DNA of 64,000 bases from Marinilabilia salmonicolor JCM 21150 (GTDB lineage: Bacteria; Bacteroidota; Bacteroidia; Bacteroidales; Marinilabiliaceae), in contig NZ_AJKI01000002.1 of assembly GCF_000259075.1 (NCBI RefSeq), forward strand, positions 186,001 through 250,000, in the 5' to 3' direction. Positions 27,525 to 56,167 of the stretch are shown here, one piece after another. Position numbers and translations under genes: made by a program. Below the pieces are notes generated by a model that worked only from the letters and a program-made list of their open reading frames with translations, made no database searches and was not told where the DNA came from. The stretch's first letter is position 1; the number at the start of each line of letters is the position of its first letter.

Positions 27525-27642
27525 CTGTCTATTTGCTTTAGATTAAAATCATGTTGTTTTTCGTTTAACCTGCCAAGGTCGGCTTCAACCAGCACTTTGA
27601 AAATAATTATTTCAGGCATAATTAGCTGATAACTAATTCCTG

Positions 27643-28851: not shown

Positions 28852-28864
28852 TATAATCTAATAT

Positions 28865-30043: not shown

Positions 30044-30076
30044 ACTTCTTCCTGGTAAATATCGTTAAGTGGTCAA

Positions 30077-31183: not shown

Positions 31184-31217
31184 TTTTTAACAATAACATT
31201 ATCAACAAAATATCAGA

Positions 31218-34165: not shown

Positions 34166-34181
34166 ACCCTAATATATTTTA

Positions 34182-34219
34182 TAAAAGAAGCGGCCACCGC
34201 AGGAAGCAGGGCCGCTTCT
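34182..34219 (-). terminator. Intercistronic hairpin between SGBP and GH26 genes
   Basis: A perfect 10-bp stem (34219-34210 with 34195-34186 on the minus strand) is followed by TTTTAT. It sits in the 73-base gap before the GH26 gene and should attenuate or partly end transcription from the SusC side. Confidence 0.75.
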
Positions 34220-34238
34220 TAACCATCAAATCATTTTT

Positions 34239-36374: not shown

Positions 36375-36399
36375 AATTGTAAAGTTTACGTTTGATCAA

Positions 36400-39454: not shown

Positions 39455-39535
39455 GTGATACCAATTTTCTAAATTATGCAACATGCAATACCCTTTATAC
39501 CAAAGACTTTGCTTCATAATCAAGTTCATCATTTA

Positions 39536-42500
39536 TTAAAATGAAACATTCAGACCAACGGTGTAAATACGAGGAGCAGGATAGCGCCCGTTGTCAAGTC
39601 CGTAAACATTCTGGCTGGTCTGACTGGCACCAATCTCAGGGTCGAAACCCGAGTATTTGGTAATCGTGTAAAGGTTCTGCACTCCGGCAGAAAGTTTCAG
39701 GTTATCAATACCCCAGCGTGAAGTCAACCGGTTAGGGACATAATAAGCCAGAGAGATGTTCTTAAACCTCAGGTAAGATCCATCCTCGACATAACGATCT
39801 GATATGCGCATGTTATCATTGGGGTCACCGGCAATTGTTCTTGGCATGTTGTCTTTCCCCATCTGAACAATTTGTACGTTATCGATATCATTGTACCAAC
39901 CATCAACATCATTAATCGGTCCTAAAATCGTACGGTCTGTTACCTCCGCCAACTGATTGTCCCACATATTATCCATGCCGGAAAGACTGCGTCCGATATA
40001 ATTCAGGACTTTATTGCCATAATTACCGTTCATAAAAACTGTTAATTCCACATTCTTAAATCTGAATGTATTGTTCCATCCAAATGAAAAAGTAGGCCAT
40101 GGAGATCCCAGAAATGTCTTATCATGCTCATCAATTACTCCATCCGGTTTACCATTGGGGCCTGAAAGATCTTTAAATTTCAGGTCACCCACCCAGGTGG
40201 TGGTAGCCCGGTCCCAGTTCAAATCACCTGTTTCGGGATCAGCATTGGGAAATGCCTCCTGACGGGGACTGTTAATAATGTCATTTTTACTGGTAAATAC
40301 TCTGTCAACTTCATAGCCGTAAAAGCCATAAAGCGATTGACCTAATTCTGTCATAGTTACTACATCGCTCCATTGTCCATACCCTTCAATGTGTGCAGAA
40401 GGAGTTCCGGTAAGACCGAGTAAGGTATTGTCATTCATTGTGAAGGTAATTCCGCTATCCCAGCGGAACATGGGAGTTACAACAGGTCTGGCATTCAAAG
40501 TTATCTCCACTCCTTTGTTCTCTATTTCTCCAAAATTTCCTGAAGGAGGATTGAGTCTTGAAGATTCGTTTCCGCGAGTTCCCATATAGGAAGGTAACTG
40601 CATGGCCATCAACATATCGGAAGATTTCTTTTGATACAGATCCACAATCACATCAATTCGATTATCGAATAAACCCAGATCAATACCTAAGTTGTATTGC
40701 TCCTGCTTCTCCCACTGAATATATGGGTTCGCAATATTGGTCTGACGATAACCATCACCCAGTCCTGTAGGCATTTTGGTAATAGAGGCACCCCATTGAT
40801 AACCCCCAATGCTGGCATTACCGGTTTGTCCCCATCCTGCACGGATTTTTAAACTATTCACAATTCCGCTCAAACCATCCCAGAAAGGCTCATCAGACAC
40901 TCGCCACATTCCGGAGAATGCATGGAAGGGAGCCCAGCGGTTTTCAGGACCAAAATTTGAAGATCCGTCATAACGGAAAGTATAAGTCAGGTAGTATTTA
41001 CTACTGTAATTATAGTTGGCTCTTGAAAAGAAAGAGGCCATTGAGCCACTACCAAACCCCGAGCCAACAATCATGGTATTATTATCCCCCAGACTTGGAG
41101 AATGAATCAGATTACTGGGTAAAGCACTACTGGAACCGTTCAGATATTCCCAGGTAGATTCGGAAACCTCCTGACCAGCCATAAGACTTGCACTATGGTT
41201 TCCAAAATTTCTGGAATAAGTCAGGTAGTTCTTCAACTCCCAAAAACGGTTCTTATTGTACTGCCAACGAGAGCTATTTTGCGTATTGGCTACATTCCCA
41301 TACTGATAAGTAGGAGTAAAAGTATAGGCATTGGTATTACCAACATCCATAGAAGCCTCTGTCCTTAATGTCAACCCCTCAATAAAGGTAATATCACTGT
41401 AAACATTGGCTGTAAAATTTGTTCGTTCAAGTCGGATTTCTTCATCCAACGCTTTTGCAATAGGGTTGATTTTACCGGGTGAACCTTCACGCTCATCCCC
41501 GGACCAGCTGCCATCCACATTGTAAACAGGCACATCCGGCGAAGTCTTCATTGCAACATTGATAATACCATCTTCACTGTTGTTCAATCCCAGTTGATCT
41601 TCACTTTGAGCAAACGTAATGTTGGTACCAATGGTCCACCAGTCCTTCAACTCAGAATCAAGATTCACACGACCGGTAAAACGCTCATAGCCGCTACCAA
41701 CAACGGTACCTTCCTGATCGAAATAACTACCGGAGATGAAATACTTGCTCTTTTCAGTTCCTCCCGAAGCACTAATCTGATGGTTTTGCATGGGAGCTGT
41801 TTGAAACACAGCATCCTGCCAGTCAGTCCCGGTACCAAGCAGAGAAGGATCCAGAAGCTCTTCACGTGATTCACGGCCCTCTGTTTCCGCAGCAATATTG
41901 TTGCTGTATGAGGCATATTGACGCAAGTCCATCACGTCAATTCTTTTAGCCTGCTCCTGAATACCATACTGGAAGTTATAGTTGAATTTTGCTTCACCAC
42001 TCTTTCCTCTTTTTGTGGTAATAAGCACAACACCGTTAGCTCCGCGCGAACCATAAATGGCAGTTGCAGAAGCATCCTTCAGAATCTCCATCGATTCAAT
42101 ATCGGCGGGGTTGATATTTGACAAACCACCACCAAAAGTACTTACAGGGGCATTTCCCAATTTATCACCAAGACCAACACCATGTCCACCCTGGCTTACA
42201 TTCTGAATGGGTACCCCATCAACCACATAAAGCGGCTCAGCCGATCCGGCACTCAAAGTACTCTGACCCCGGATACGAATAGAAACTGATGCACCCGGTT
42301 GACCGGAGGTGGAAATAGCGGTGACCCCCGCTGCACGCCCCTGTAAAGCCTGGTCAAGGTTGGCAGAAACACTTTGTTGCAAATCTTCACCTTTTACCGA
42401 GACACTCGCGGTAGAAACATCGCTTTTCTTCATACTACCATAACCCACTACCACAACCTCATCAATCGAACGGGTTTCAGGAACCATTTGAATATCCACC

Positions 42501-42772
42501 TCCGAGCGATCGCTCACATCAATGATCTGGTTTTCAAATCCAATAAAAGAAAACTGAAGAACGTTTTGTCCTTCCTCTAAAATTACGCTGTAGTTACCAT
42601 CCATGTCAGTTATGGTACCCTGTGTGGTACCCTGGATAACAACGGACACCCCCGGTAAAGGTGCACCCGTTTCATCGGTAACGTTTCCGGTTACTGTTTT
42701 CCCCTGCCCAAAGGCCATTACCTGAAAGGCAAGAAAAAACATTGCTAAAAAAAACCGCAGATTTTTTCTCAT
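39536..42772 (-). CDS. SusC-family TonB-dependent transporter of the mannan locus
   Basis: The 1078-residue product imports oligosaccharides across the outer membrane using TonB energy. Signal peptide RKNLRFFLAMFFLAFQVMAFGQ is followed by a carboxypeptidase-regulatory-like domain (VTGNVTDETGAPLPGVSVVI). A TonB-box/plug region follows: SIDEVVVVGYGSMKKSD and LQGRAAGVTAISTSGQPG, with ASATAIYGSRGANGVVLITTK ending the SusC signature. The 22-strand barrel ends IYTVGLNVSF with C-terminal Phe. The ATG at 42772 is chosen because the 11 codons before it add no signal-like sequence. It is the first gene of the mannan unit and is clearly more diverged from the two SusC proteins to its right than they are from each other. 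Confidence 0.95.
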   Translation of the reverse strand: MRKNLRFFLAMFFLAFQVMAFGQGKTVTGNVTDETGAPLPGVSVVIQGTTQGTITDMDGNYSVILEEGQNVLQFSFIGFENQIIDVSDRSEVDIQMVPETRSIDEVVVVGYGSMKKSDVSTASVSVKGEDLQQSVSANLDQALQGRAAGVTAISTSGQPGASVSIRIRGQSTLSAGSAEPLYVVDGVPIQNVSQGGHGVGLGDKLGNAPVSTFGGGLSNINPADIESMEILKDASATAIYGSRGANGVVLITTKRGKSGEAKFNYNFQYGIQEQAKRIDVMDLRQYASYSNNIAAETEGRESREELLDPSLLGTGTDWQDAVFQTAPMQNHQISASGGTEKSKYFISGSYFDQEGTVVGSGYERFTGRVNLDSELKDWWTIGTNITFAQSEDQLGLNNSEDGIINVAMKTSPDVPVYNVDGSWSGDEREGSPGKINPIAKALDEEIRLERTNFTANVYSDITFIEGLTLRTEASMDVGNTNAYTFTPTYQYGNVANTQNSSRWQYNKNRFWELKNYLTYSRNFGNHSASLMAGQEVSESTWEYLNGSSSALPSNLIHSPSLGDNNTMIVGSGFGSGSMASFFSRANYNYSSKYYLTYTFRYDGSSNFGPENRWAPFHAFSGMWRVSDEPFWDGLSGIVNSLKIRAGWGQTGNASIGGYQWGASITKMPTGLGDGYRQTNIANPYIQWEKQEQYNLGIDLGLFDNRIDVIVDLYQKKSSDMLMAMQLPSYMGTRGNESSRLNPPSGNFGEIENKGVEITLNARPVVTPMFRWDSGITFTMNDNTLLGLTGTPSAHIEGYGQWSDVVTMTELGQSLYGFYGYEVDRVFTSKNDIINSPRQEAFPNADPETGDLNWDRATTTWVGDLKFKDLSGPNGKPDGVIDEHDKTFLGSPWPTFSFGWNNTFRFKNVELTVFMNGNYGNKVLNYIGRSLSGMDNMWDNQLAEVTDRTILGPINDVDGWYNDIDNVQIVQMGKDNMPRTIAGDPNDNMRISDRYVEDGSYLRFKNISLAYYVPNRLTSRWGIDNLKLSAGVQNLYTITKYSGFDPEIGASQTSQNVYGLDNGRYPAPRIYTVGLNVSF

Positions 42773-43290
42773 AAGAAACAAATTAAAATTACACTGTAAA
42801 ACCAATTTATGTCAGAAAGGGTTTTTTACATTTTTTCACATCACAAATGTATTGCTTGCCAAAATGCTTTTCTAATACTTTTTTATCATTTACCGTTAGT
42901 TTTTTTACATATCACAAACCTTTTTAGCATTATAAAACAGAATAATTCCGGTAATCCATCTTATAGCTCAAGTTATTCAACGCGAAAAAATAAAGCCCGT
43001 GTCTTTAACTTACAGGACTTTGACACACTTCTATCTTTTATCTCAGATTCTAAACCAAGAAAGAATATAAAATCACAATACTTCATTTTTATTAAAAATG
43101 TATCACAAAAAACTGATCATTTTTTATCCAAAACGTTCATCATTTCAAAAGACTATTGAATTATTACAGATAGTTTGATTCAAAAACAAACCCAATCTAT
43201 TCTCTCTAAGAGTATTTTTTAACAAATAAAAACAATTCTGCAATTAATAAGAGGGGTGAAATGTATCCAATAAAGGGTGTAATTGTATTA
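42773..43290. promoter_or_regulatory. Control region upstream of the mannan SusC gene
   Basis: About 520 AT-rich bases lie between the SusC start and the GH97 terminator. On the minus strand TACATTTG at 42844-42851 is a perfect -7 box 72 bases before the ATG. No -33 element or operator is obvious. A 116-residue plus-strand frame (42809-43159) has no protein-like features. Confidence 0.45.
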
Positions 43291-43322
43291 TAAAAAGAAA
43301 AGCCGCCTGAAAAACAGACGGC
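43291..43322 (-). terminator. Terminator after the GH97 gene
   Basis: On the minus strand an 8-bp stem (43322-43315 with 43309-43302, one G-T pair) with a TTTTT loop is followed by TTTTCTTTTTATA, 26 bases after the GH97 stop. It isolates the GH97 unit from the mannan SusC unit. Confidence 0.85.
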
Positions 43323-43348
43323 TTCATCCATTATCAAAAAAATCTCTA

Positions 43349-45343
43349 CTATTCAACCGGGGAAAATCGAATGGATTGTCCACCTCCTGCAGCGAGATTG
43401 AGACTCATTTCAGTATCAGCCTCCACTATTTTCTTAGTAATTTTAATAGCGGTAGGATTAGATTCCCAGTGGGCATCAGCCCCATCTGCATAGATTTCGG
43501 CTAAGTATTTTTTGTCCGGATCCAGAAAGGACAGTTTGATTTTAAAGTCGCGTGCTTTTTCATTGGTCAGACTCCCCAGGTACCAATCTTCTGAATTCTT
43601 GTCCTTGCGCACCATAGTGATGTACTCTCCAATCTCTGCATTCAGCACCTTGGTGTCGTACCAGTCAACCGGGACATCAAGGAGAAACTTCAGAGCCGGA
43701 TGTCCTTCATAATTTTCCGGTAAATCAGACATCATCTGAGTAGGTGACAAAACAACGACATAAGCCGCCAACTGCTTCGCAATAGTGGTATGAACCCTGC
43801 GCCCCTCACGATACTTTATCATTATGTCAAAAGTCCCGGGCGTGAAATCCATTGGCCCTGCCAACAAGCGGGTAAAAGGCAAAGTCGCAAGATGAGAAGG
43901 AGGATTTCCATCACTCCACGCATCATATTCCATTCCACGACCTCCTTCACGGGTCATCATATTGGGGTAGGTCCGACGCTCTCCGGTATCCTTAATCGGT
44001 TCATGGAAATTAACAGCCAGTTTATTTTCAGCGGCCTTTTTAAGAATTCTCCGGTAATAATTGACCCCAAACTGACCATGGTGCCACTCTTTCATGTTGA
44101 GTTTAGAGCCTACCTGACCAATTTTAATGTCATGGATTCCGATCTCCCGATAAAGTGCAAACCCATCATCCACCTGATCAAGGTAACTAATAAGATTAGA
44201 TCCTGTTTCATGATACCCGATCAACTTAACGCCTCGTTTGTTGCCATACTCCACCACTTCTTTCAAATCAAAATCATCCACACTTTCTGTAAAGCTAAAC
44301 TGATGCATGCGATTTTCGTACCAGGCAGGTGTCCACCCATTATTCCATCCCTCAATCAGCAAAAGAGGTACATCATGCTCCGAGGCGAAGTTGATATATC
44401 TTTTCGCATTTTCGGTGGTAGCACCAAGATCTTCACTTTCCCAAAACGTATATTTCCCAATATGCATGCCCCACCAGATTCCCATATATTTCGAAGGTTT
44501 TATATAGGAATGATCCTCCAGTTTATTTGGCTCATTAAGATTTAATACTATATAATTGGTTATCAGGTCACCTGGTTCTTCACCAATCTGAATCGTTCGC
44601 CATGGTGTTTTCATGGGAGCACTGGTCTTCACTTTGGTTCCATCAGCCCAGGGCACCAATCCGGTAACCAGTTTGTTCCCGGGCATTGAAACAACGGTAT
44701 AACTGGCATAGTCAACCAGTGCTGCTTCATGCAAAGAAAGATATAATCCATCCGCCGTTTGCATGGTCAAGGGCGTATGCACCGTATCCATCTTACTGAT
44801 GCCCGACCTGGTAAACAAATATTCATAACGATCGGGCTGATAAGCTTTGATCCACCATGCAGTATGATCATCAGTCATAGCAAATTCCGTCACCTCATCC
44901 ATAATGACAAAATCTTCCATACCCTCCTGTTCAGGTATTTCATAACGGAAGCCGACGCCATTGTCAAACACTCTAAAGAAAACAGACATTTGGCGACCAG
45001 CTTCTGCCGTTTCCTGAAGATCAACCCTCAGTTGATTGTAATGATTACGGATAAACTGTTTTTCGCCCCATACCTGTTCCCATGTGTTATCATAAGAAGT
45101 AACTTCACTCCCGGTAATTTCAAAGCCTTCGGTCAGAGGCGCCTGATCCTTTAATATAAACCCCATTGCAGAGTTCAGCACAACCTCCTGCCCCTTGTAG
45201 GACACACTGTATTGAGGCTTGGTTTCATGCAGCCCAAAAGAAACATTAATATTCCCATCGGGTGACTGAACAGTCACTTTTCCCTGAGAACATGATGCCA
45301 GTACAACCACCGACATCAGCACTAAAAACAAATTTCTTATCAT
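43349..45343 (-). CDS. GH97 glycosidase, SusB-like inverting alpha-glucosidase type
   Basis: From the ATG at 45343 the product has 664 residues, with a lipoprotein signal ending VVVLASC. The N-terminal beta-sandwich (VTVQSPDGNINVSF onward) leads into the barrel with LLLIEGWNNGW. Glutamates fit the inverting SusB type in both context and spacing: Glu379 (IGYHETG), Glu448 (VNFHEPIK), Glu466 (TREGG) and Glu472 (GMEYDAW), at +0, +69, +87 and +93, the same intervals as Glu439, Glu508, Glu526 and Glu532 of SusB. An alpha-glucosidase is therefore more likely than the retaining alpha-galactosidase type. It ends the unit that starts at 49933, 114 bases after the chorismatase-like gene. Confidence 0.88.
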   Translation of the reverse strand: MIRNLFLVLMSVVVLASCSQGKVTVQSPDGNINVSFGLHETKPQYSVSYKGQEVVLNSAMGFILKDQAPLTEGFEITGSEVTSYDNTWEQVWGEKQFIRNHYNQLRVDLQETAEAGRQMSVFFRVFDNGVGFRYEIPEQEGMEDFVIMDEVTEFAMTDDHTAWWIKAYQPDRYEYLFTRSGISKMDTVHTPLTMQTADGLYLSLHEAALVDYASYTVVSMPGNKLVTGLVPWADGTKVKTSAPMKTPWRTIQIGEEPGDLITNYIVLNLNEPNKLEDHSYIKPSKYMGIWWGMHIGKYTFWESEDLGATTENAKRYINFASEHDVPLLLIEGWNNGWTPAWYENRMHQFSFTESVDDFDLKEVVEYGNKRGVKLIGYHETGSNLISYLDQVDDGFALYREIGIHDIKIGQVGSKLNMKEWHHGQFGVNYYRRILKKAAENKLAVNFHEPIKDTGERRTYPNMMTREGGRGMEYDAWSDGNPPSHLATLPFTRLLAGPMDFTPGTFDIMIKYREGRRVHTTIAKQLAAYVVVLSPTQMMSDLPENYEGHPALKFLLDVPVDWYDTKVLNAEIGEYITMVRKDKNSEDWYLGSLTNEKARDFKIKLSFLDPDKKYLAEIYADGADAHWESNPTAIKITKKIVEADTEMSLNLAAGGGQSIRFSPVE

Positions 45344-45457
45344 ATTGATTTTATTAATTGTTTGCTGTTGCAAGAAAACAAAAACAAGGAAATTCCAGGG
45401 GATGAAAATGTTTTTCAAACAGGGTTGAAATGTCTTAAAAGACAAAAAACTGCAATC

Positions 45458-46690
45458 TTAATTACATTCTATACACTCACGAAAACAATTATTCGCAACC
45501 ATTTCTCCTTCAATCTCAACGAGCAGGTTGTCTCTGCAAACATCAGCCTGCACAAAAGCAATAGAAACATCCGGGAAATATTCCTTACAAATTTGTTGTA
45601 CAACCGGAAAATCCTCCTCTTTTTTCACATACACCCGCAGCAAAGTATATCTCAAGGCATCCATATTGAGGGTCCCTTCTGCTGATCTGGTTATTTCTTC
45701 AAGATTGCCAATGGTGACGCGTGTTTGCTCCTCCACATCCCCAATTCCCACCGTCTCCTGACCAATAATGGAGGCAGTTCCGGATAAAAATAACGTAGAA
45801 TTCCCGGGCATTTCCAATAATCTGGCTCTTTCGAACTGAGGGGGTTGCTTTGCAGCCGTCTTCATCGGCGCTGAGCCAACCAGCACCTCCTGACCATACA
45901 CATAAGCATTCTGTTGTTTCCGGTTATTTACAGGAGCTGTGGTAACACTACCAACAAATGGCTTCACGGCAAAAAAATCAATGGTTACCCCGGGTATTTT
46001 AACACCAATTCCGGTAGCAGCAGGAAAATCCTTCCGGGTACGGTAATGCTTGTAAAAACGGCCACGCACCTCATTAAAAACCTGATAATTTTGCAAATCC
46101 CGGCCATCGGCAGCATTAATCTTTAGAATCCCTCCCACATAGTTCCATTGCCTGATGACATGATCCATGGTCATGCCTTCTGTGTGCAGGATTTCCAACA
46201 TCTGTCCGAAGGCACGGATGGCATCCTGCTCAATGTCTCCAACAAGCTCAACTCCTCCGGCTCCACTCATCCACAACTCTTTAACCATAGCATCTTCAAT
46301 CAAGACATAGGGAGTATCACAATGCATTTTGTAATGAATCTGCAACTCCTGTCCGGTAACAAAACCCGCCTCCACAGCAAACGAAGAATCAGAAAAAGGC
46401 TTTTGAGAAACGATATTGAAAGCAGGAACCTCATCATAAAAACAATCAAAAACTGCCTTGGAAAAATCAGCTGCTTTGCCTCTATACTCATCTTCATTTT
46501 CGCAACTCACAAAGACAGTTAGCTTAAAAACCTGTCCATTTATTTCTCCCGCATGAGTTTTAACTTCGAGCAGCAATTTCTTTATTCCTTCTATAGAATT
46601 ACTATACTTGTCAAGCTCCAAAAACTGGTATGTTTTTTCAATCCCCATAAAATCATTTTCCGAAAAATACACCTCTAATGAGTCTATCAA
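45458..46690 (-). CDS. RidA/chorismatase-like (FkbO/Hyg5-type) protein
   Basis: The 410-residue product has no signal peptide. It contains features of the FkbO/Hyg5 chorismatase group, which has a RidA-like trimer fold. The middle part reads VIRQWNYVGGIL, then YQVFNEVRGRFY and FPAATGIGVKIPG. The C-terminal RidA-like part reads LFLSGTASIIGQETVGIGDVEEQT and then LRYTLLRVYVKKEEDFPVV. In known chorismatases these blocks line the active site that hydrolyses chorismate; whether this protein does so is not known. Its apparent TTG start overlaps the stop of the upstream propeller gene, so the two are translationally coupled, unless an ATG 14 codons later is used. A cytoplasmic enzyme encoded with two envelope proteins is unexpected. 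Confidence 0.7.
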   Translation of the reverse strand: MIDSLEVYFSENDFMGIEKTYQFLELDKYSNSIEGIKKLLLEVKTHAGEINGQVFKLTVFVSCENEDEYRGKAADFSKAVFDCFYDEVPAFNIVSQKPFSDSSFAVEAGFVTGQELQIHYKMHCDTPYVLIEDAMVKELWMSGAGGVELVGDIEQDAIRAFGQMLEILHTEGMTMDHVIRQWNYVGGILKINAADGRDLQNYQVFNEVRGRFYKHYRTRKDFPAATGIGVKIPGVTIDFFAVKPFVGSVTTAPVNNRKQQNAYVYGQEVLVGSAPMKTAAKQPPQFERARLLEMPGNSTLFLSGTASIIGQETVGIGDVEEQTRVTIGNLEEITRSAEGTLNMDALRYTLLRVYVKKEEDFPVVQQICKEYFPDVSIAFVQADVCRDNLLVEIEGEMVANNCFRECIECN

Positions 46691-48162
46691 TCATTTCTTT
46701 TCTCGAACGACAACTGAACATGTTCATTTTTAACCGCCTCCTCAAGTTGACCCAGGTTCATATTAACAGGTTGATTAATAAACTCGGGCACATTAAATGA
46801 GTAGAAAGTCATATCATAAAAATCAGGGTCTTCCTGAGGCAATAAAAAAGGTTTGCCTGCATTTCCCTGCTCGTCAATATGGGCAATAAATGGCATGGTA
46901 TAAAGTCCGTTAACCCTACGACTGCTAAACACCATCCATCGTGAATTGGACGACCATGAATGGTAACTCTCTGTCTGATCGCTGTTAAGTGTTTCAAGCG
47001 GTTTATTAATTCCTGTTTCCGTGTCATACAACCACAAATCCGCCTCCGGGTGCCAGATTGAAAAATTCCCATAGTTAAACTTTGTATAAACAATGAACCT
47101 GCCATCATAAGAAGGACGGGGAAATGAGACGCTCTGGTCCAATTCGGCAGCATTGAACAGTGTGTCTATTGCAGATCCAAACATTCCGGTTTCCGGATCA
47201 AAGTCAATCCTCATCAAATTATATTTAATATTTTTTATTTGAAGCGGAAGCGTGTCAACCCGGGCTGAACAAAAGAATAAAGACTTCCCATCCGGAGAGA
47301 AAGCAGGAAATGTTTCCATGTGATTCTTGCTTTGCAAATGATCACACGAAAAAAGTGTGTTCTTGTTAACATCGAAGATTACAATATCTGAGGCATGATC
47401 AAAAACTTCAACTCTTTTCTCATTGGCAGCATGAAATGTTTGTTGTGTTTTATTCACCGAATAGGCGATATAATTGCCAGTGGGATGCCAATAAGGATAC
47501 ACACATTTTGAAAGTGTTTCTTTTGTTTTTGTATCCAGCACTTTTAAGTTTCCGTCTTCCAGCAAAACAGTGCCTCCCTGCGGTCCGCGAATATGCAAAC
47601 TCATATTAGCAGCATTCGTTTGTCTGTAAGAATGACAATTCATACAGCTCCCCTGGAAAAGCGTATTTTCTACAATCGCATTTTGATTGAAATTATCCAG
47701 AGACCTTTGATAAATCCCCATTTTACTGTAAATCTCATAACCCGGGGCAATTAACCGATAGGAAAGGCCATAGTCAATGGGGTCGCCGCTGACATAAACA
47801 GGAAAAGGCGAAAAACGATACCATTCTCCATTGCGATTTACATCAAGATGAAACATAAGACTATCCCCTTTCGACGTCTCAAGAAGATGCTTCCATTCAT
47901 CCAAAGGCATCTTCAGTGTTTGTTCTGCTTTCACCCTTAGGATCTTGCCATCACTGTTCTCAATATATAATTCCGAATAACGAACAGAGTCCCATTCAAT
48001 TCGAAAGTTGAGAGGTGCAATTCCCGATGGGATGGTCACCCCAATATAATCGGGGAAAATTTCCGGATATCCCTCCTTTTTCTGAACTTCTGATTTTCCC
48101 CCAACGCAGGAACTAGTTGCCAGCAAAAGAAAACTGACCATTGAAAAAAGCAAACCCTTCAT
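46687..48162 (-). CDS. PD40 beta-propeller lipoprotein with a CxxCH heme motif
   Basis: The 491-residue product has a lipoprotein signal (SMVSFLLLATSSC, Cys19). Residues 40-165 form a beta-rich domain. Cys173-Met-Asn-Cys176-His177 in FQGSCMNCHSYRQ is a c-type heme attachment motif. From about residue 195 to 460 are TolB/PD40-like propeller blades (WHPTGNYIAYSV, AFSPDGKSLFFCSA, RPSYDGRFIVYTKF, SSNSRWMVFSSRR). It should be a membrane-anchored periplasmic or surface protein, possibly carrying heme. Its start is 10 bases from the upstream membrane-protein gene and its stop overlaps the chorismatase-like gene, so the three form a tight operon. No specific function is known to me. Confidence 0.72.
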   Translation of the reverse strand: MKGLLFSMVSFLLLATSSCVGGKSEVQKKEGYPEIFPDYIGVTIPSGIAPLNFRIEWDSVRYSELYIENSDGKILRVKAEQTLKMPLDEWKHLLETSKGDSLMFHLDVNRNGEWYRFSPFPVYVSGDPIDYGLSYRLIAPGYEIYSKMGIYQRSLDNFNQNAIVENTLFQGSCMNCHSYRQTNAANMSLHIRGPQGGTVLLEDGNLKVLDTKTKETLSKCVYPYWHPTGNYIAYSVNKTQQTFHAANEKRVEVFDHASDIVIFDVNKNTLFSCDHLQSKNHMETFPAFSPDGKSLFFCSARVDTLPLQIKNIKYNLMRIDFDPETGMFGSAIDTLFNAAELDQSVSFPRPSYDGRFIVYTKFNYGNFSIWHPEADLWLYDTETGINKPLETLNSDQTESYHSWSSNSRWMVFSSRRVNGLYTMPFIAHIDEQGNAGKPFLLPQEDPDFYDMTFYSFNVPEFINQPVNMNLGQLEEAVKNEHVQLSFEKRND

Positions 48163-48172
48163 GACAAACCTT

Positions 48173-49933
48173 TTAATTCCTAAAATGAAAATAATACCAA
48201 TAAGTTTCGCCGAATTTTTTGTGCAACAGCGGTTGCGGATCGGGCTGAGATGTATAAATTTTCCTGTATCTATTCAAAGAAGATTTGATCTCATCTCTTA
48301 TTGGATACGGTATTTCTTTAATAACCTCACTTTTTGAAACATCCCATGCATAAACCAAAGCCTCCTGAAAATGCCGTGGAATTCTGAAATAAGACAAAGA
48401 CTCACCTAGTGGAAAATACTGCACAAAATGTTGAATATCTTTATTCAATAAACAATAAGCCATCAGATACTCAAAAGCCAGTTTATTTTTCTTTTCGGAA
48501 AGCATAATTCCAAGCATCATATCCTTTTCCTGATCACTAAAGAAGAAATCTCTGTCCAGCTTCATACTCCTTAAGAGCCCGTATTCAGGGTGTTGATTGA
48601 TAAGATCCTCTTTTTGCATGGCTCTTTCAAGATAAGTAGCCCACTTACGGTAATAAAATGTGTTTTGAAGAATTTTCAGATACTTCTTTGAAAGCACATA
48701 GTTTCCGTTAATCAAGCTTGTCTCGGCAAGCCGTTTCATCGTCCTTACACTTTTCTGATAATCAGGCAAAGCCTCCATCGCTTCAAAAGAAAATCGCTGT
48801 GCTGTATTAATAAACCCCAAATGGTAATAGACCTCTCCGGCCACCATCGGAATCGTAAAATCTTTAGTAAAGTCCGGAATCAATCCTTCATCCCCCTTTT
48901 GGATAAATTCGAACATCCTGTCTCCCAGTTGTCCTTTTTTCCCCAAAGCCAGATTCAAACAAGTAACAGAAAGCGGACTTTGAGGTGCCTTTTCTTCAGC
49001 CTTATGGATAATCTCTTCCCATTTTCGCATTCTTACATAAAAATCATATTCCATTATTCCCTCCCGTTCAAAATCAACCGACCGATAGATAAACCAGCTT
49101 CCAAAAAGAAAGAAAATCAGCACCTCAACTAAAAGGATATTCTTCTTTAAACGAAAATTTCCTTTGGAAAGAAATTTGGAAAGAAATGGCAATAATACAA
49201 GCAGAAGTCCGATAATCCCCACGATCACCGGAAAATTTATGGGAAACCGGAAGTAATTAACACCCACAATAAAGGGAACCAGGGGAAACATTCCCAACCT
49301 GTTTTTTAGAAAGAAAGGAATTGCCAAAACAAGTAAAACACCCAATGAATTAAACAAAAGAAGGAATTTCCACGAACGGGTTTTTTCATTCAATTCATAA
49401 ATTAAGAGGAACAAAAAGAAGAAGAGGACACTTCCTCCGGCAATCAAATAAAGTAGCGGGATTCCTAAAAGAATAAACAGTATTTTCACCAGACCCGATC
49501 TGCTGAAAGTATATAGGTAATTGGACAAGCTAATGAAAAGAATGGCAACCAATCCGCCTGTCAGGTAATTCTCATCACATAAAAGTCCCCAATACATCAA
49601 AACCGGGAAAAAGGAAAGCACAAAAAAATCTTTGGCTGCTCCTAGATTTCGGATCGTTCCAAGCAAGCTTCTCTGGAAAAGAATTAGCAAGGTGGCTATA
49701 ATCAGGCTCCCGACCCAGGGATAAAAATAAAACTGCGTAAAAAACGAACCCAGGTAATTACTCAAACCGCCCGGCTGCATTACTCTTTCAAGAAAATAGT
49801 CCGCAGTAAAAAGAAATAACTGGTACTGTTCCTGATAGTGCAGATGGAAAGAATAAAACAATCCAAAAAACAAAAAGATGAGTAACCCCAAAAAAAGGGA
49901 ACTTAAGCCGGAAACAGATATATTTTTCAACAT
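48173..49933 (-). CDS. Multi-pass inner-membrane protein with soluble C-terminal domain (DUF6057-like)
   Basis: The 586-residue product has about nine hydrophobic helices in the first 280 residues (starting SSLFLGLLIFLFFGLFYSF), with conserved-looking loops such as ADYFLERVMQPGGLSNYLGSFFTQFYFYPW. The last 300 residues are soluble and helical with repeat-like pairs (VYYHLGFINTAQRFSFEAMEALP, then TSLINGNYVLSKKYLKILQ), suggesting TPR-type helices. It matches my recollection of the DUF6057 family of Bacteroidota, at moderate confidence; I know of no function. It heads the operon with the CxxCH propeller and the chorismatase-like protein. Gene order and tight spacing suggest a joint role at the envelope. 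Confidence 0.65.
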   Translation of the reverse strand: MLKNISVSGLSSLFLGLLIFLFFGLFYSFHLHYQEQYQLFLFTADYFLERVMQPGGLSNYLGSFFTQFYFYPWVGSLIIATLLILFQRSLLGTIRNLGAAKDFFVLSFFPVLMYWGLLCDENYLTGGLVAILFISLSNYLYTFSRSGLVKILFILLGIPLLYLIAGGSVLFFFLFLLIYELNEKTRSWKFLLLFNSLGVLLVLAIPFFLKNRLGMFPLVPFIVGVNYFRFPINFPVIVGIIGLLLVLLPFLSKFLSKGNFRLKKNILLVEVLIFFLFGSWFIYRSVDFEREGIMEYDFYVRMRKWEEIIHKAEEKAPQSPLSVTCLNLALGKKGQLGDRMFEFIQKGDEGLIPDFTKDFTIPMVAGEVYYHLGFINTAQRFSFEAMEALPDYQKSVRTMKRLAETSLINGNYVLSKKYLKILQNTFYYRKWATYLERAMQKEDLINQHPEYGLLRSMKLDRDFFFSDQEKDMMLGIMLSEKKNKLAFEYLMAYCLLNKDIQHFVQYFPLGESLSYFRIPRHFQEALVYAWDVSKSEVIKEIPYPIRDEIKSSLNRYRKIYTSQPDPQPLLHKKFGETYWYYFHFRN

Positions 49934-50068: not shown

Positions 50069-51253
50069 CTAATCATTTACAGCCTCAAATTTATAAAGCC
50101 AGGTCTCACCTGTTCCATTGTCACCACCGAGAATAAGTGTATTCTCTGTTACTGAGACAAGTGCTAATTCTGTAAACACCGCATTTCCACCATTAACATT
50201 CACTCCATAGATGATACTGATTCCATCCAACTTGATGGTTCCCACGGAGTAACCATCAACCTTCGACCCCAGATCCAATTCTACAGATCCGGTATGAACA
50301 CCAACGGGATCAATACTGGTATCACCTCCCTCGTAAACCTCTTTGGTCAAACTCAAATCTGAATATTTGAAAGTCATGATCCCATCCTGTCTTTCAATCA
50401 TATTCTCATAGCTGTTCTGCCACCAGCCGGCACCCGGATCAGTAAATCCATGATAGGGACCATTGGCCCATACCACACCACTACGTGACCATCTCCAGCT
50501 TTTAGACACATTCGGATCGGCAAGGAAATCCCCAAAAAGGTTTTTGTACTCAGCCGGAACGGTGGTCAGTTCTTCCACAGTGACTTCCTGGGTATAAGCA
50601 TCCTCTATAACTGATCCGTCAGCTTTAGCCAAATCCAGAGAGAGAGTAAAAGTACCAAGAGATGTAACAAAGAGCTCCAGCCGGTTTTTATTTCCTTTAG
50701 CATCACCAAAAGTCCAATCACAAAGATAAGGTGCATCACAACTCAACGTCAGTTTATTTCCGGGTGTTCCGTCTTCGGCAACTTCCTGAACCACATTTAT
50801 ATTGTAATCAACATAATTGGCATTTCCCCAGAAATAGGGTTTGGAAGTTTTATCCACTGAACCATCTGCATTGTACTTTATACCTAAACGGGCCTTGACA
50901 TCTGCCGGCAGATTGGTCATCGTATCAATCTGTACGGAAAGGTTATCTTCCACTTTTGACCCGTTTCCATTCAATCCAACAAATTGAACTTCCTTTGTCC
51001 CGACATTATCGAATACAACAGTTGCATAGGAGGACTCAATCTGAGAACGATCAGAGATCCACCTCGAAAGAAGAGGAGAATTATTTTCTACAATAACTTC
51101 ATTCGAGTTCCTGCCATCTACCATTATCGGTTTGGCTGACAGCTGAAGGCTCTCCTTGCTGACAACACCCGATAATGAATCACGATCTTCAATAGGATCG
51201 CAAGCTGCAAAAACAGCAGCAATAAGGGTAACATATAATATTATTCGTTTCAT
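50069..51253 (-). CDS. Surface lipoprotein in SusE/SGBP position, unknown fold
   Basis: The 394-residue product has a lipoprotein signal (IILYVTLIAAVFAAC, Cys18) followed by DPIEDRD, an acidic surface-export type sequence. Residues 30-235 are beta-rich, with PKD-like features (LSCDAPYLCDWTFGDAKGNKN resembles a PKD-type WxFGDG strand, and FVTSLGTFTLSLDLAKADG). The C-terminal part is aromatic-rich (WRWSRSGVVWANGPYHGF, GAGWWQNSYEN) and ends TWLYKFEAVND, which may be the glycan-binding module. It lies 20 bases after a SusD gene, where SusE/F-type surface glycan-binding proteins are encoded. That position is the main basis for its proposed role; the ligand is unknown. Confidence 0.72.
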   Translation of the reverse strand: MKRIILYVTLIAAVFAACDPIEDRDSLSGVVSKESLQLSAKPIMVDGRNSNEVIVENNSPLLSRWISDRSQIESSYATVVFDNVGTKEVQFVGLNGNGSKVEDNLSVQIDTMTNLPADVKARLGIKYNADGSVDKTSKPYFWGNANYVDYNINVVQEVAEDGTPGNKLTLSCDAPYLCDWTFGDAKGNKNRLELFVTSLGTFTLSLDLAKADGSVIEDAYTQEVTVEELTTVPAEYKNLFGDFLADPNVSKSWRWSRSGVVWANGPYHGFTDPGAGWWQNSYENMIERQDGIMTFKYSDLSLTKEVYEGGDTSIDPVGVHTGSVELDLGSKVDGYSVGTIKLDGISIIYGVNVNGGNAVFTELALVSVTENTLILGGDNGTGETWLYKFEAVND

Positions 51254-51273
51254 GAGATTCTGTTTTTAAAGTT

Positions 51274-52992
51274 TTACCAACCCGTATAGTTACTCGAAGC
51301 AGTTCCATAACCCGGAGTTTGCGTCAATACGCCTTCCGACAAGGCAATTTCAGACTCAGGAATAGGGAAAAATCCGCCTGTAGCTTCATATCGAGCTCTA
51401 TATCCCCCACCAAAAGATTTCATAACCGTTGGGGTTCCACTTTCATAAACCTTCACACCCAGCTGTTCTTCAAGCAACTCAGGAGCATCTCCCCAACGCC
51501 GGATGTCGGCATAACGTCTTCCTTCAAATGCAAGCTCGAATCGGCGTTCACGCTTCAAGGCCTCTAATGAATAACTCACAGGATCCAGACCGGCCCGGAC
51601 ACGAACCTCATTCATTTTGTCAGCTGTTTCTGTCAATTCTGAGTGCATTAACAATACATCCGCAAATCGAATCAACATCAGGTCATTAACACCATCCAAC
51701 TGAAAGTTATCGGTTGCATCAAACATTGGGACAGAGAAAGAAGAATAATAGGTTGGATTACCTTCTCCATCCACTTTCCCTGTTTTTGCACTAATGTGAA
51801 CACTTTTCATTTGCCAGTAATCGGTTTCTTCCATCATAGTCCAACCGCCAAATGAGTAATCCGGCAGATCGGCAACAGGCATTATCGATGCTTCTCTCCT
51901 TAAGTCACTGGGTTCTGCATCTTCCCAGGTCTCCCAAAGAGTTGGATTGACAGGTCCTGCACCCCATCCCTGCCCAAGAGGGAAGGTATTGCCGTAAGGC
52001 TGACCGCCACGGATTCCAAAATGGAGTAAATATTGATTTGAGTATCCAATAGTAGTACTCCAATCGGCAAAGTTGGAAAATTTAATGGCAAAAACGGACT
52101 CCTGATTTCCATCACCAGCCCAATTCAGATCACTTCCATCGACACCTGTTTCGCCAGACATTTTTTCAAAATCGGACAGCGTGTATTCATTGGTATAAGC
52201 CCACAGATTTCTGAAATCTCCAACCAGGTCATGTCCACTATTGGCAATACAGTCTTCCAGATAGCTTACAACATCCGTTTTGCTCAGAGAACTTCCATCA
52301 GCCAAAGGCATTGCATCTTTATTGTAATATCCGGTATAGAAGAGATAAACACGGGCCAGCAAAGCTTCTGCAGCCCATTTGCTAGCATGTCCCGCAACAG
52401 TCTCATTGTATGGCACATCCTTCATCAAAGAGATGGCTGATACCAGATCATACCCTATCTGTGCATAAAGAGAATCAGCAGATGCATTAGGCAGGTTTTC
52501 GGCCTCATCCGAATTTAAAGGCATGGGAACCTCTCCATACATTTCGGCGAGCTCATGATAAAAGAAACCACGCAGAAAATGTGCTTCGCCTTTCAATTGG
52601 TTAACCTCTTCTCCCTCTAATCCCATCTTTTCAATAGAGAGAATAACACTATTGGCTCTGAAAATCCCCTGATAACGCGCCTTCCAAAAAGGGCGGGAAG
52701 CATCAGTTCCATGATTCATAATTTTATCCCAGGCCTGCATCAACTTATCGTTATCTCCTCCACCGCCAAAGCGGTCATCAGAGGCAAGTTCGGCAGCATA
52801 AAAATAGGTACACTGAGGATCGGCCACAGCAGTATTGAGGGTATTGTAAATTCCAATTACTGCCTGTTCCACATCTTCCACATTGGCGGGAAAATTAGTG
52901 GTATTTTTCTCGGTGAGATTTTCTGTGTCAAGGAAATCTTCACAACTGGTAAATACCAGAATGGCTATTGCGAAATATATTAATCTTTTCAT
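51274..52992 (-). CDS. SusD-family nutrient-binding lipoprotein (pair 2)
   Basis: The 572-residue product has a lipoprotein signal (FAIAILVFTSC, Cys17), then EDFLDTENLTEKNTTNFPANVEDVEQ. The SusD core appears as LKGEAHFLRGFFYHELAEMYGEVPMP and HASKWAAEALLARVYLFYTGYY. The C-terminal block is ALKRERRFELAFEGRRYADIRRWGDA, and it ends with a GFFPIPESEIALSEG motif. It would act with the SusC protein encoded 13 bases upstream. It is clearly a paralogue of the SusD at 56568, sharing the opening CEDFL.TE.LT.K...NFP, the tyrosine-rich middle and the ending block, so the pair arose by duplication. The substrate is unknown; neighbours allow mannan or an alpha-glucan. Confidence 0.92.
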   Translation of the reverse strand: MKRLIYFAIAILVFTSCEDFLDTENLTEKNTTNFPANVEDVEQAVIGIYNTLNTAVADPQCTYFYAAELASDDRFGGGGDNDKLMQAWDKIMNHGTDASRPFWKARYQGIFRANSVILSIEKMGLEGEEVNQLKGEAHFLRGFFYHELAEMYGEVPMPLNSDEAENLPNASADSLYAQIGYDLVSAISLMKDVPYNETVAGHASKWAAEALLARVYLFYTGYYNKDAMPLADGSSLSKTDVVSYLEDCIANSGHDLVGDFRNLWAYTNEYTLSDFEKMSGETGVDGSDLNWAGDGNQESVFAIKFSNFADWSTTIGYSNQYLLHFGIRGGQPYGNTFPLGQGWGAGPVNPTLWETWEDAEPSDLRREASIMPVADLPDYSFGGWTMMEETDYWQMKSVHISAKTGKVDGEGNPTYYSSFSVPMFDATDNFQLDGVNDLMLIRFADVLLMHSELTETADKMNEVRVRAGLDPVSYSLEALKRERRFELAFEGRRYADIRRWGDAPELLEEQLGVKVYESGTPTVMKSFGGGYRARYEATGGFFPIPESEIALSEGVLTQTPGYGTASSNYTGW

Positions 52993-53005
52993 ATTCTTCT
53001 CCTAA

Positions 53006-56000
53006 TTAAAATTTGAGATTTAATCCAACCAAATAAGTTCTTGGGGCAGGATAGAACCCAAGATCAATGCCGGAAGACCAGTTTCCCTGATTACCGGATC
53101 CACCGTCATATCCATATCCTACCTCCGGATCCATCCCCGAATAATTGGTAAAAGTGTAAAGGTTTTGAGCAGAAACATAAAATCTCACTTGCTGTAAGGG
53201 CAAATTGGTAAAGAGTTTTTTGAAGTCATACCCAAGAGTGACATTGCTGATCTTTACGTAATCCCCATCTTCAATATAGATATCAGAAATATTCTGCCAG
53301 TTGGTATTTGTACCGGGGGTAAGGCGCGGCAATTTATTGGAAGTTCCTTCACCGTACCAACGGCCAAAAATTTCGGTAGTATAATTTTGACGCTCGCTAT
53401 CAGCAAATGACCGGTAAGATTTCGCAATTTGCTGTCCAAAAGCCCCATTGGCTGTCAGACCAAAGTCAAGACCTTTGTACGACAAGCTAAGGTTCAGACC
53501 TGCAGTGAAATCGGGATGAGGATTACCAATTTCGGTTTTATCATTTTCATCAATGACTCCGTTCTTATCTATATCAGCGAAGATAACATCTCCTGGCTGT
53601 GCACCTTCCATCACGCCCAGACCTTCAGTACGTCTTGCTTCGATCTGCGACTGGTTTTGGTAAATTCCTTCGGTTTTGTAACCCCAGAAATACCCAATTG
53701 GCTTACCCTCTTCTGCACGATACATCTCTGTCGTTCCCTGACTTAGCACGTGCGGCTCACCATGAATAATTCCTTCACTATTGGCAATCCGGGTCACTTC
53801 GTTTTTGTTATATGCGCCGTTAAGTGCAACGCTGTAAGACAAATCTCCTACACGATCATTCCAGTTCAAAGCCAATTCAATACCACTATTCTCCACGTCA
53901 CCTCCATTAATGAATGGTGGTTCTGTACCAAAAGAAGCCAATGCGGGAGCAACAACCAACCAGTCCTTTGTGGTTTTTACATACCAGTCAAAAGCTACTC
54001 CAAGTTTAGAATTCAACAATCTGGCATCAAATCCCAGGTCAATCTGTTCTGATGTTTCCCAGGTAATATCCTCATTGGGCAAAATATTTTGATATCCTCC
54101 CTGACTTTGTTCGGTTTTGGTATTACCAAAGGAGTATTTTGCTGTTTCAGGGAATCCTACTGTGGCAATATACTGGAAGTTATCGATGTTACAGTTTCCG
54201 TTTTGTCCCCAGCTACCCCGCAGCTTAAAGAAATTTAAGATACCACTGACTCCGTCCATAAAAGTTTCGTTGGACATTACCCATCCGGCAGAAACCGAAG
54301 GGAAATACCCCCAACGATTGCCTTGTGCAAAATTGGAAGATCCATCAGCACGCATGACCACGGAGGCCATATAGGTTTCATTAAAGTTATAATTGACACG
54401 CCCGAAGAAAGAGGCAATACCCCCCTCTCCCCAGGGCTCTCCTTTAATGCTGGTCACACCTGCGGTATATCCTTTGGTATTGCTCAGCCATGCATGGTCA
54501 AAGTCAGAAAAAATAGAACGGCTATTGGTAACATCTACATTCTCACCAAGACCAAACTTCTCCACCGACTGGCCAACAAGGGCATCAATAAAGTGTCCGT
54601 TGGTGCGGAAAGAATAATTCAAAGTATTTTCCCATTGCCACTGAAATCCAAGATTCATGGATTGCTGTGTCTGATCGTTCTCCGGATTATATCCGTCTCC
54701 TGCGGTACTCAACTCATAAGTTGGGACATAGCGTCTGTAGCTACTAGCTGAAAGTTTATATCCGAAACTGGTTTTAAATTTCAGATCGGCCAGAGGCTGT
54801 AATTCGAAAAATACGTTTCCCTGCAGATTATGATTCTTAGATAAATTGCGCCCGCTTCGATACTCCATCAAAGCAATAGGGTTACTGGTTTGTGAATCGT
54901 AGTTGACCAGACCGGTAGAACTCTTATCATCAGCATCGAAATATTCTCCTTCCTCATTGTAAACGGGCATCAGAGGAGAAGCAACCAACATTGAGTGAAT
55001 ATCGTTGGCATAGATGTTTCCAATCTGAATACCATTGCGTGTACTGTAACTGTAGTTCAGGTTTTCTCCAAAACGAACAACATCCAAATCATTTACACGA
55101 TAAAGAACATGATCGGAATTAACCCGTGCCGTAGTCCTTTCATAACTGGGATTTACCGGTTTACCTAAAATACCATCCTGGGAAGTATGAGAGAACCCAA
55201 ATGAATACGTAGATTTATCGTTACCACCTGCAATGTTAAGTGCATGATTCTGGGTGGGAGCATTCTTCTCCCGAATCTCCTCGAGCCAATTGGTTCCATC
55301 AGATTCGCCAGCCATAATAGCCTCATAATCGGGGACAAAACCAGCCCAGTCATAGCCATCTTTTCCGTCGTTAAAACGGGTTTCGTCCATCATGGTCATA
55401 TACTGCCTGGCATCCAGAAGTGCGGGCATTTTATAAACATTTTGAACGCCATAATAACCATCATAACTTACCTGAACTTTCCCGGCTTTTCCTTTTTTGG
55501 TGGTTACCAAAATCACTCCGTTTGCAGCACGAGACCCATAAATAGCTGCTGATGCAGCATCCTTAAGAACATCAATTGATTCAATATCTGCAGGGTTAAG
55601 CGCATTGATATCCCCACCTGTGACACCATCAATAACATAAAGCGGATTGGAATTACCCACGGTTCCAAGTCCCCGGACGTTTACTTTATATCCTTCACCA
55701 GGCATCCCTGAAGATTGGGTAATGTTCACACCGGGACTCTGGCTCTGCATGGCTTGCAAAGGACTCACTGTATTCATTTTTTGAATATCCTCTCCGGAAA
55801 CATTCAAATTGGCACCCGTAGTAAGCGCCTTCTTTTGAACACCATAACCGACTACGACTACTTCGTCCAGATCGGTATAGACATCACGCATTACCACATT
55901 AATCTGAGTCTGGTTACCCACAGAAACCTGCTGAGTTTCCATTCCCACAAAAGAAAAAACCAGAACAGATTCCGCTCCGGCCACATTCAAATTGTAATTA

Positions 56001-56167
56001 CCCTCCACATCGGTAATCACTCCATTTTGAGTCCCCTGTTCCAAAACAGTAACGCCGGGAACAGGCTCACCTTGTGCATCGGTAACATTGCCACTCACCT
56101 GCGTCTGGGCAAATGTGGCAATGCTGAAACACAAGCCGATCAAAAAAAATAACACTCTTTTTTCCAT
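53006..56167 (-). CDS. SusC-family TonB-dependent transporter (pair 2)
   Basis: The 1053-residue product is an outer-membrane oligosaccharide importer. It has signal peptide VLFFLIGLCFSIATFAQ, an N-terminal carboxypeptidase-regulatory domain (VSGNVTDAQGEPVPGVTVLE) and the TonB-box/plug sequence DLDEVVVVGYGVQKKALTTG. The SusC signature ends AASAAIYGSRAANGVILVTTK, and a barrel ends APRTYLVGLNLKF. It is strongly similar along its length to the SusC at 58392, including the barrel end FYPAPRTYLVGLNLKF against FYPSPRTYLVGLNLKF and an identical stretch of 5' leader. This marks a tandem duplication of the susC-susD pair. Upstream a -7 box lies at 56346-56353. Confidence 0.95.
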   Translation of the reverse strand: MEKRVLFFLIGLCFSIATFAQTQVSGNVTDAQGEPVPGVTVLEQGTQNGVITDVEGNYNLNVAGAESVLVFSFVGMETQQVSVGNQTQINVVMRDVYTDLDEVVVVGYGVQKKALTTGANLNVSGEDIQKMNTVSPLQAMQSQSPGVNITQSSGMPGEGYKVNVRGLGTVGNSNPLYVIDGVTGGDINALNPADIESIDVLKDAASAAIYGSRAANGVILVTTKKGKAGKVQVSYDGYYGVQNVYKMPALLDARQYMTMMDETRFNDGKDGYDWAGFVPDYEAIMAGESDGTNWLEEIREKNAPTQNHALNIAGGNDKSTYSFGFSHTSQDGILGKPVNPSYERTTARVNSDHVLYRVNDLDVVRFGENLNYSYSTRNGIQIGNIYANDIHSMLVASPLMPVYNEEGEYFDADDKSSTGLVNYDSQTSNPIALMEYRSGRNLSKNHNLQGNVFFELQPLADLKFKTSFGYKLSASSYRRYVPTYELSTAGDGYNPENDQTQQSMNLGFQWQWENTLNYSFRTNGHFIDALVGQSVEKFGLGENVDVTNSRSIFSDFDHAWLSNTKGYTAGVTSIKGEPWGEGGIASFFGRVNYNFNETYMASVVMRADGSSNFAQGNRWGYFPSVSAGWVMSNETFMDGVSGILNFFKLRGSWGQNGNCNIDNFQYIATVGFPETAKYSFGNTKTEQSQGGYQNILPNEDITWETSEQIDLGFDARLLNSKLGVAFDWYVKTTKDWLVVAPALASFGTEPPFINGGDVENSGIELALNWNDRVGDLSYSVALNGAYNKNEVTRIANSEGIIHGEPHVLSQGTTEMYRAEEGKPIGYFWGYKTEGIYQNQSQIEARRTEGLGVMEGAQPGDVIFADIDKNGVIDENDKTEIGNPHPDFTAGLNLSLSYKGLDFGLTANGAFGQQIAKSYRSFADSERQNYTTEIFGRWYGEGTSNKLPRLTPGTNTNWQNISDIYIEDGDYVKISNVTLGYDFKKLFTNLPLQQVRFYVSAQNLYTFTNYSGMDPEVGYGYDGGSGNQGNWSSGIDLGFYPAPRTYLVGLNLKF

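Follow-up and report, generated by a model that had tools for sequence, protein, structure and literature searches.

What joins a membrane protein, a heme-c propeller lipoprotein and a chorismatase-like enzyme in adjacent genes? The question is raised by a locus of Marinilabilia salmonicolor JCM 21150 that lies in a stretch of 64,000 nucleotides (assembly GCF_000259075.1, contig NZ_AJKI01000002.1, positions 186,001 to 250,000), hereafter called the window. A first-pass annotation of this DNA had described the three genes as one translational unit within a glycan locus and had proposed that they form a redox or small-molecule system. The three minus-strand open reading frames were confirmed. 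From upstream to downstream, they encode a DUF6057 protein, the propeller (PRO) and the chorismatase-like enzyme (CHO), with the following features:

48173-49933, minus strand: DUF6057 protein of 586 amino acids (PF19529, E 1.7e-170; AlphaFold2 model with mean pLDDT 87.1; structure alignments; loop charges judged by eye)
46687-48162, minus strand: PRO, a predicted TolB-like propeller of six blades, lipid-anchored and bearing one c-type heme motif (PD40 repeats; AlphaFold2 model with mean pLDDT 91.8; alignment to TolB with Z 26.9; lipobox judged by eye)
47632-47646, minus strand: CxxCH heme-c attachment motif of PRO (C173-M-N-C176-H177), kept in 62/62 full-length homologues
45458-46690, minus strand: CHO, FkbO/Hyg5-like chorismatase (PF21168 and PF01042 over cut-off; matches to the Hyg5 and FkbO structures)
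45515-45538, minus strand: Hyg5-type catalytic stretch of CHO (C385 = Hyg5 Cys327, E392 = Hyg5 Glu334), identical in 83/83 CHO

Judged by gene order across genomes, the core unit is the DUF6057-PRO pair, and CHO is a looser partner. Linkage gives good support to two conclusions: the pair constitutes an envelope module that is conserved and bears a heme-c motif, and CHO is functionally coupled to modules of this type. We tentatively propose that the three together constitute an envelope redox module, in which an aromatic compound made by the chorismatase is used by the heme protein; to this proposal we give somewhat less than an even chance.

The pair was followed in 33 DUF6057 regions, i.e., 32 stretches around DUF6057 matches plus the window. 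With the profiles made for each family, these regions were found to hold 43 DUF6057 open reading frames (some being pieces of genes that are split), along with 38 PRO and 10 CHO. DUF6057 is located directly upstream of PRO and on the same strand for 36 of these 38 PRO, and likewise for 36 of the 43 PRO in the 79 CHO loci described below. Both exceptions in the first set are in L065, where one PRO overlaps DUF6057 beyond the limit set and the other has no recognized DUF6057 upstream. The seven exceptions in the second set include contig ends, PRO without a recognized DUF6057, and the PRO-TPR form of L134.

In the window, only 10 bases (48163-48172) separate DUF6057 from PRO, as the first-pass annotation had stated. 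The overlap that it described between PRO and CHO is more doubtful. The open frame of CHO reaches a TTG codon at 46690, from which the CHO residues are numbered here, and the overlap depends on this start. An ATG in the same frame at 46648 (MGIEK), 42 bases inside the TTG, would leave approximately 38 bases between the genes. In L059, a close homologue probably from the same contig as L090, the CHO frame begins at the position equivalent to this ATG; in L057 and L058, the frame continues upstream, as it does in the window. On this evidence the ATG is the more likely start, and a translational overlap of all three genes is the less probable reading. In other genomes, the spacing between co-directional PRO and CHO genes, counted to the first possible start codon, varies from an overlap to 214 bases, and CHO is also found on the opposite strand. 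Thus, tight coupling is a property of DUF6057 and PRO and is not fixed for all three genes. What remains of the single unit first described is a stable pair with a frequent, looser partner.

How frequent this partner is was assessed in the best 80 of 294 relatives, ranked by likeness to the window, of which 79 loci were kept (genome-contig scan, CHO alignment). PRO or DUF6057 is located less than 1 kb from CHO in 32 of these loci and further off in three; in 26, the pair is absent but the flank is short. The three families thus co-occur well beyond this genome, and M. salmonicolor, Anaerophaga thermohalophila and Breznakibacter xylanolyticus are among the carriers of all three. The 32 adjacent loci, one of which (L160) is from a metagenome-assembled genome (MAG) of KSB1 and some of which are near-duplicates (L091-L093, L098/L100 and L150/L151), display four arrangements: CHO is found downstream (20) or upstream (two) on the same strand, convergent (five) or divergent (five). 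On a CHO tree of 85 rows, the adjacent and non-adjacent states change at least 14 times when loci labelled truncated or near are left out. A separate long-branch clade of CHO (L074/L075) likewise adjoins a DUF6057-PRO pair.

A phylum-wide scan of 296 genomes points in the same direction. PRO (E ≤ 1e-20) and full-length CHO were found in the same five genomes (G000, G039, G078, G160 and G196), three of which are detected by PF21168 alone; in 10 further genomes, the CHO profile matches no more than the RidA-like domain. The PRO match in G160 and G196 is of a weaker, PRO-TPR type (E ~1e-35). In G160, which has no DUF6057 there, CHO is divergent from a 702-residue CxxCH-PD40-TPR gene, and in G196, CHO and a similar CxxCH-PD40-TPR-like protein are encoded on different contigs. 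In addition, a PRO match elsewhere was obtained for 25 of the 44 CHO genomes whose fetched locus lacks the pair (22 strong, three weak). In L134, CHO, an arylsulfotransferase-like gene and a CxxCH-PD40-TPR gene stand in a row; arylsulfotransferases act on phenols.

Several observations weigh against a coupling of this kind. The 79 CHO loci over-represent the context of the window and contain some near-duplicates. In 18 of them, the pair is absent with at least 5 kb of clean sequence on each side of CHO, and 19 are in genomes without a PRO match, many of which are MAGs of completeness not given. The pair often occurs without CHO: CHO is present in only 10 of the 33 DUF6057 regions, and a single genus or genome contributes several of these. 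The CHO tree was built quickly and leaves 36 of its 81 inner branches unsupported, and in the scan of 296 genomes, at most five candidates were scored per genome, so that PRO may have been missed.

Some of these observations would fit two functions that merely travel together. DUF6057-PRO would then be a glycan or envelope accessory, CHO would make 3-hydroxybenzoate for an unrelated product, and their adjacency would stem from shared genomic islands. The loci and regions where one partner lacks the other are compatible with this explanation, as are the CHO loci that contain GH127 and GH31 genes (plus, by eye, aldose epimerase, GH51 and sugar kinase genes) or 3-keto-disaccharide hydrolase genes. 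However, it does not readily account for the co-occurrence of CHO and PRO in five out of five genomes, nor for adjacency in four orientations with repeated changes of state on the tree. Moreover, only 13 of the 79 CHO loci have SusC/D-like genes within 5 kb, and a shared glycan island therefore fails to account for the adjacency; at the same distance, such genes accompany 15 of 32 DUF6057 regions and 12 of 33 PRO-bearing loci. The glycan-locus setting described at first is not general. Altogether, we consider independent travel rather improbable.

The enzyme itself was identified by two domains, FkbO_Hyg5-like_N (PF21168; 50.1 bits, E 3.4e-13) and Ribonuc_L-PSP (PF01042; 43.8 bits, E 3e-11), which is in line with its earlier description as RidA/FkbO-like. 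It matches the sequences of the solved structures of Hyg5 (E 3.1e-27, over window residues 145-396 only) and FkbO (E 5.1e-19). When 83 CHO sequences of at least 330 residues, i.e., without the fragment L124, were aligned with both, Gly240, Cys327 and Glu334 of Hyg5 were found in all 83 (G304, C385 and E392 in the window protein), whereas FkbO has Ala at the first two. A second diagnostic Gly (position 173 in Hyg5, a numbering offset by 9 from that of PMC7170507) is kept in 82 of the 83 and is also present in FkbO, and for 32 Hyg5 positions the conservation among the 83 is 95% or more. In PMC7170507, Glu334 is described as the acid by which the reaction is initiated, and the Gly/Gly/Cys set as the signature of the CH-Hyg5 type. 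Since Gly240, Cys327 and Glu334 are present throughout, CHO is predicted to produce 3-hydroxybenzoate from chorismate, as a chorismatase of the CH-Hyg5 (CH-II) type.

CHO thus shares both domains and Glu334 with the chorismatases FkbO (CH-I) and Hyg5 (CH-II), and Gly240 and Cys327 are of the Hyg5 type. It differs from them in that the match to Hyg5 is partial and in that its neighbours are heme-c propeller genes. In addition, its match to the NCBIfam model TIGR04444 has an E-value of 3.8e-41 but reaches only 141.4 bits, where the curated cut-off is 325. CHO is therefore filed as a divergent relative and not as a TIGR04444 member, and the missed cut-off means that its product could differ from that of Hyg5, a further point on the opposing side. 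Known chorismatases serve antibiotic, macrolide/immunosuppressant or pigment pathways.

Another possibility is that CHO clears a metabolite, e.g., an unsaturated uronate, acting as an enamine/imine deaminase of the RidA type or as some other enol-ether hydrolase, while the heme propeller oxidizes a sugar or phenolic compound in the same catabolic route. An unsaturated uronate has an enol ether similar to the enolpyruvyl group of chorismate, PF01042 is matched by the RidA-like domain, and CHO adjoins glycan catabolic genes in many loci; also the DhaK, DhaL and LsrF genes near CHO on the Aureibacter plasmid pAT4 and the DhaK gene near CHO in P. distasonis look catabolic. Nevertheless, we consider this unlikely, given the identity of Gly240, Cys327 and Glu334 in all 83 sequences and the further Hyg5 positions that are kept, and an ordinary RidA deaminase was rejected on the former ground. 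The first-pass annotation had left open whether the enzyme makes or clears an aromatic compound. Because the Hyg5-type residues are universal in the alignment, synthesis is favoured over clearance by imine deamination.

PRO starts with a lipoprotein-type signal (LLATSSC, by eye) and contains PD40 repeats (E 6.9e-13 in Pfam); it is encoded by a single-copy gene in the genome of the window (E ≤ 0.001). In a comparison of 62 distinct full-length PRO sequences, from which those shorter than 470 residues and the one of L134 were left out, C173, C176 and H177 of the CxxCH motif and also Arg192 are kept in all 62, and His190 and His226, candidates for a second axial ligand of the heme, in 58 each. 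The same genome contains a heme-c assembly gene of the System II type, a single open reading frame of 1022 residues with ResB and Cytochrom_C_asm over cut-off (G000:C2:585253-588321). The earlier description of a lipid-anchored propeller with a c-type heme motif is thereby borne out, and from the motif and the maturation gene we infer that heme is attached to PRO.

The fold of PRO allows comparison with two known systems. Like the TolB propeller, to which its model aligns best, PRO is a six-bladed PD40 propeller. It differs from TolB by the CxxCH motif and the conserved His190 and His226, and membership was rejected with a score of 25.6 bits against a cut-off of 343.15 for the TolB model TIGR02800 (NCBIfam). 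Next after the TolB structures comes the propeller of the hydrazine synthase alpha subunit (Z 23.7 over 291 residues). Also here membership was rejected, as the middle domain of that subunit (PF18582) was found in none of 31 PRO at E ≤ 0.01, although it does occur in other CHO-linked proteins. A search with the PRO profile against the sequences of solved structures yielded generic propeller matches. A phage origin was dismissed because PRO has no phage match; plasmid matches exist, and those of one P. distasonis strain look like chromosomal pieces.

Some PRO may carry a second redox group. The minimal target of the flavin transferase ApbE is described in PMC12052999 as D-x-x-[ST]-G-A-[ST], with the terminal position being tagged best. 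This motif constitutes the C-terminal end of six out of 66 distinct PRO (L056, L082, L123, L129, L142 and L163), as in ApbE-flavinylated redox proteins, and is absent from all of 996 other proteins of the same loci. Four of the six genomes yielded an ApbE match; those of L142 (3.5-Mb chromosome record CP070654.1) and L163 (a MAG) did not. The PRO of the window lacks such a tail. As only six out of 66 possess it, four of these share one tail and two of the genomes yielded no ApbE, a flavin tail was rejected as a general feature of PRO.

The DUF6057 protein scores 569 bits against PF19529 (cut-off 29.8), covering profile positions 5-569 of 569. The family is uncommon: it is over cut-off in three of the 296 phylum-wide genomes and in 13 of 61 genomes of relatives, one of which (G321) has 10 matches, two being pieces of one gene. 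The AlphaFold2 model shows approximately 8-9 membrane-length helices in residues 1-285 followed by a helical-repeat tail, in agreement with the nine-helix protein with repeat tail described at first. The tail aligns to TPR structures (Z up to 9.4 within residues 287-447) and, from the charges of the loops, may be located in the periplasm. A search with the DUF6057 profile against the sequences of solved structures gave nothing significant. In an alignment of 49 sequences of at least 540 residues, no column has His in more than half or Cys in more than 40% of the sequences. DUF6057 is therefore unlikely itself to carry electrons, and a heme- or metal-bearing membrane electron carrier was rejected.

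In a second look, the membrane half matched Pmt1 best (Z 10.4, rmsd 5.5, 264 aligned residues, model residues 1-290), and it also aligned to chain U of GPI transamidase (Z 8.2, 217 residues), with Z values in a range that is common for helical models. We take both structures to be GT-C folds, and the membrane half possibly has a GT-C-like arrangement of helices. Like the TMTC/PMT type of GT-C membrane enzymes with lumenal TPR, DUF6057 has a weakly Pmt1-like membrane half followed by TPR-like repeats. In GT-C glycosyltransferases, the first external loop bears an acidic catalytic residue, and DUF6057 differs from these enzymes by the lack of an invariant one: E35, the best-kept acidic residue of its first loop, is Glu in only 34 of the 49 sequences. 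That DUF6057 would be a GT-C enzyme moving a lipid-linked sugar or hydroxybenzoyl group to an envelope glycan or protein, with PRO as its partner and the heme merely structural, is suggested by these two alignments but is very unlikely in view of the variable E35, the ordinary Z values and the absence of any Foldseek match to the model at E ≤ 0.001. An active GT-C transferase was rejected accordingly, the fold match being only suggestive. With the acidic residue not invariant and no conserved His or Cys, DUF6057 reads as a scaffold rather than as an enzyme or an electron carrier.

The association of CHO with heme-c proteins also extends beyond PRO. In some CHO loci without PRO, a second recurrent set is found, consisting of a propeller with at least two CxxCH motifs and a cytochrome-D1-like match, CHO, and a large HZS_alpha/FGE protein; one such locus (L131) additionally contains Dak1 and aldolase genes. 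P. distasonis has CHO between a MauG/cytochrome-D1-like gene, which comes first, and an HZS_alpha/FGE gene; a ResB-CcsA gene stands three genes past CHO, and a DhaK gene is nearby. One strain of this species carries both this cluster and a DUF6057-PRO pair. On two Aureibacter plasmids, CHO follows a gene annotated as c-type cytochrome: pAT4 has the second set together with the DhaK, DhaL and LsrF genes, and pAT2, which looks alike, has a large SUMF1-type gene, identified by annotation. Taken together, the clusters of L131, L197 and L199, which L198 resembles, consist of CHO, a cytochrome-D1/MauG-like propeller or c-type cytochrome, and HZS_alpha/FGE, and some also contain DhaK/DhaL, an LsrF-type aldolase, an IclR regulator or ResB-CcsA. 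HZS_alpha is over cut-off in 12 of the 19 CHO genomes without PRO (six of the matches are partial) vs. 10 of the 296 phylum genomes (13 at E ≤ 0.001). The enrichment is no more than suggestive, the comparison being post hoc and the two genome sets not matched by taxon; that HZS_alpha was not matched in the remaining seven of the 19 adds to the opposing side.

The envelope redox module that we propose could work as follows. DUF6057 would be an inner-membrane protein whose TPR-like tail extends into the periplasm and holds PRO, a heme-c propeller lipoprotein that would be matured by the ResB/CcsA system. In the cytoplasm, CHO would act as a Hyg5-type chorismatase converting chorismate into 3-hydroxybenzoate. 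This compound or a derivative would then exit the cytoplasm and become, as the most likely link between the two parts, a substrate, an electron donor or a mediator for the heme protein. The redox or small-molecule system of the first-pass annotation is partly supported. None of the three findings that it had named as refuting was obtained: the genes are neighbours well beyond this genome, the CxxCH motif is kept among homologues of PRO, and a gene for cytochrome c maturation is present. The Hyg5 residues are kept as well; the function of the system follows from these only by inference. In a wider version, which we regard as doubtful, the FkbO/Hyg5-like chorismatases of Bacteroidota would be the cytoplasmic arm of a whole class of envelope redox systems, supplying a 3-hydroxybenzoate-derived cofactor, mediator or substrate to several kinds of c-type-heme propellers, i.e., DUF6057-PRO, PRO-TPR and, in P. 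distasonis, the MauG/cytochrome-D1-like and hydrazine-synthase-alpha-like set with its own ResB-CcsA, and some PRO would also carry a covalent C-terminal flavin.

As to the surroundings, the three genes of the window are flanked upstream by a SusC/SusD-like set with a lipoprotein gene (50069-56167; SusC and SusD named by eye) and downstream by a GH97 gene and a second SusC/SusD-like set (37754-45445). Further away, at 26136-37665, a mannan-type utilization locus encodes two GH26 enzymes, a melibiase-type alpha-galactosidase, a GH130 enzyme, an AGE-type epimerase, an MFS_2 transporter and a surface glycan-binding protein, plus a possible second one that is slightly below the Pfam cut-off. In P. 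distasonis (L200), a DUF4369 gene and two consecutive DUF6057-PRO pairs come first, then two glycosidase genes, an MFS gene and an AGE epimerase gene; judging by this gene order, two families may share the placement of the pair next to mannan loci. At least five loci have a DUF4369 gene directly upstream of the pair. Two or three pairs stand in tandem in L060, L061, L063 and L064, and in L064 and L083 certain DUF6057 genes fall into two pieces, one for the membrane part and one for the TPR part. In L108, L110, L115 and L120, CHO adjoins a GH127-type gene (scanned in L108 only, where GH31 is also present), and the neighbours resemble, by eye, sugar kinase, GH51 and aldose epimerase genes, as in arabinose loci.

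A literature search on DUF6057 yielded no paper, and a search by title and abstract for a link between chorismatases and envelope cytochromes yielded none; to our knowledge, no chorismatase has been tied to envelope cytochromes. If the linkage described here is true, it would give a function to DUF6057 and to the family of heme-c propeller lipoproteins, as well as to chorismatase-like genes that are currently labelled hypothetical in Bacteroidota from gut and sediment. Named, cultured species in which it can be tested exist, namely those that carry all three genes and the P. distasonis strain with both the pair and the CHO-cytochrome-CcsA cluster.

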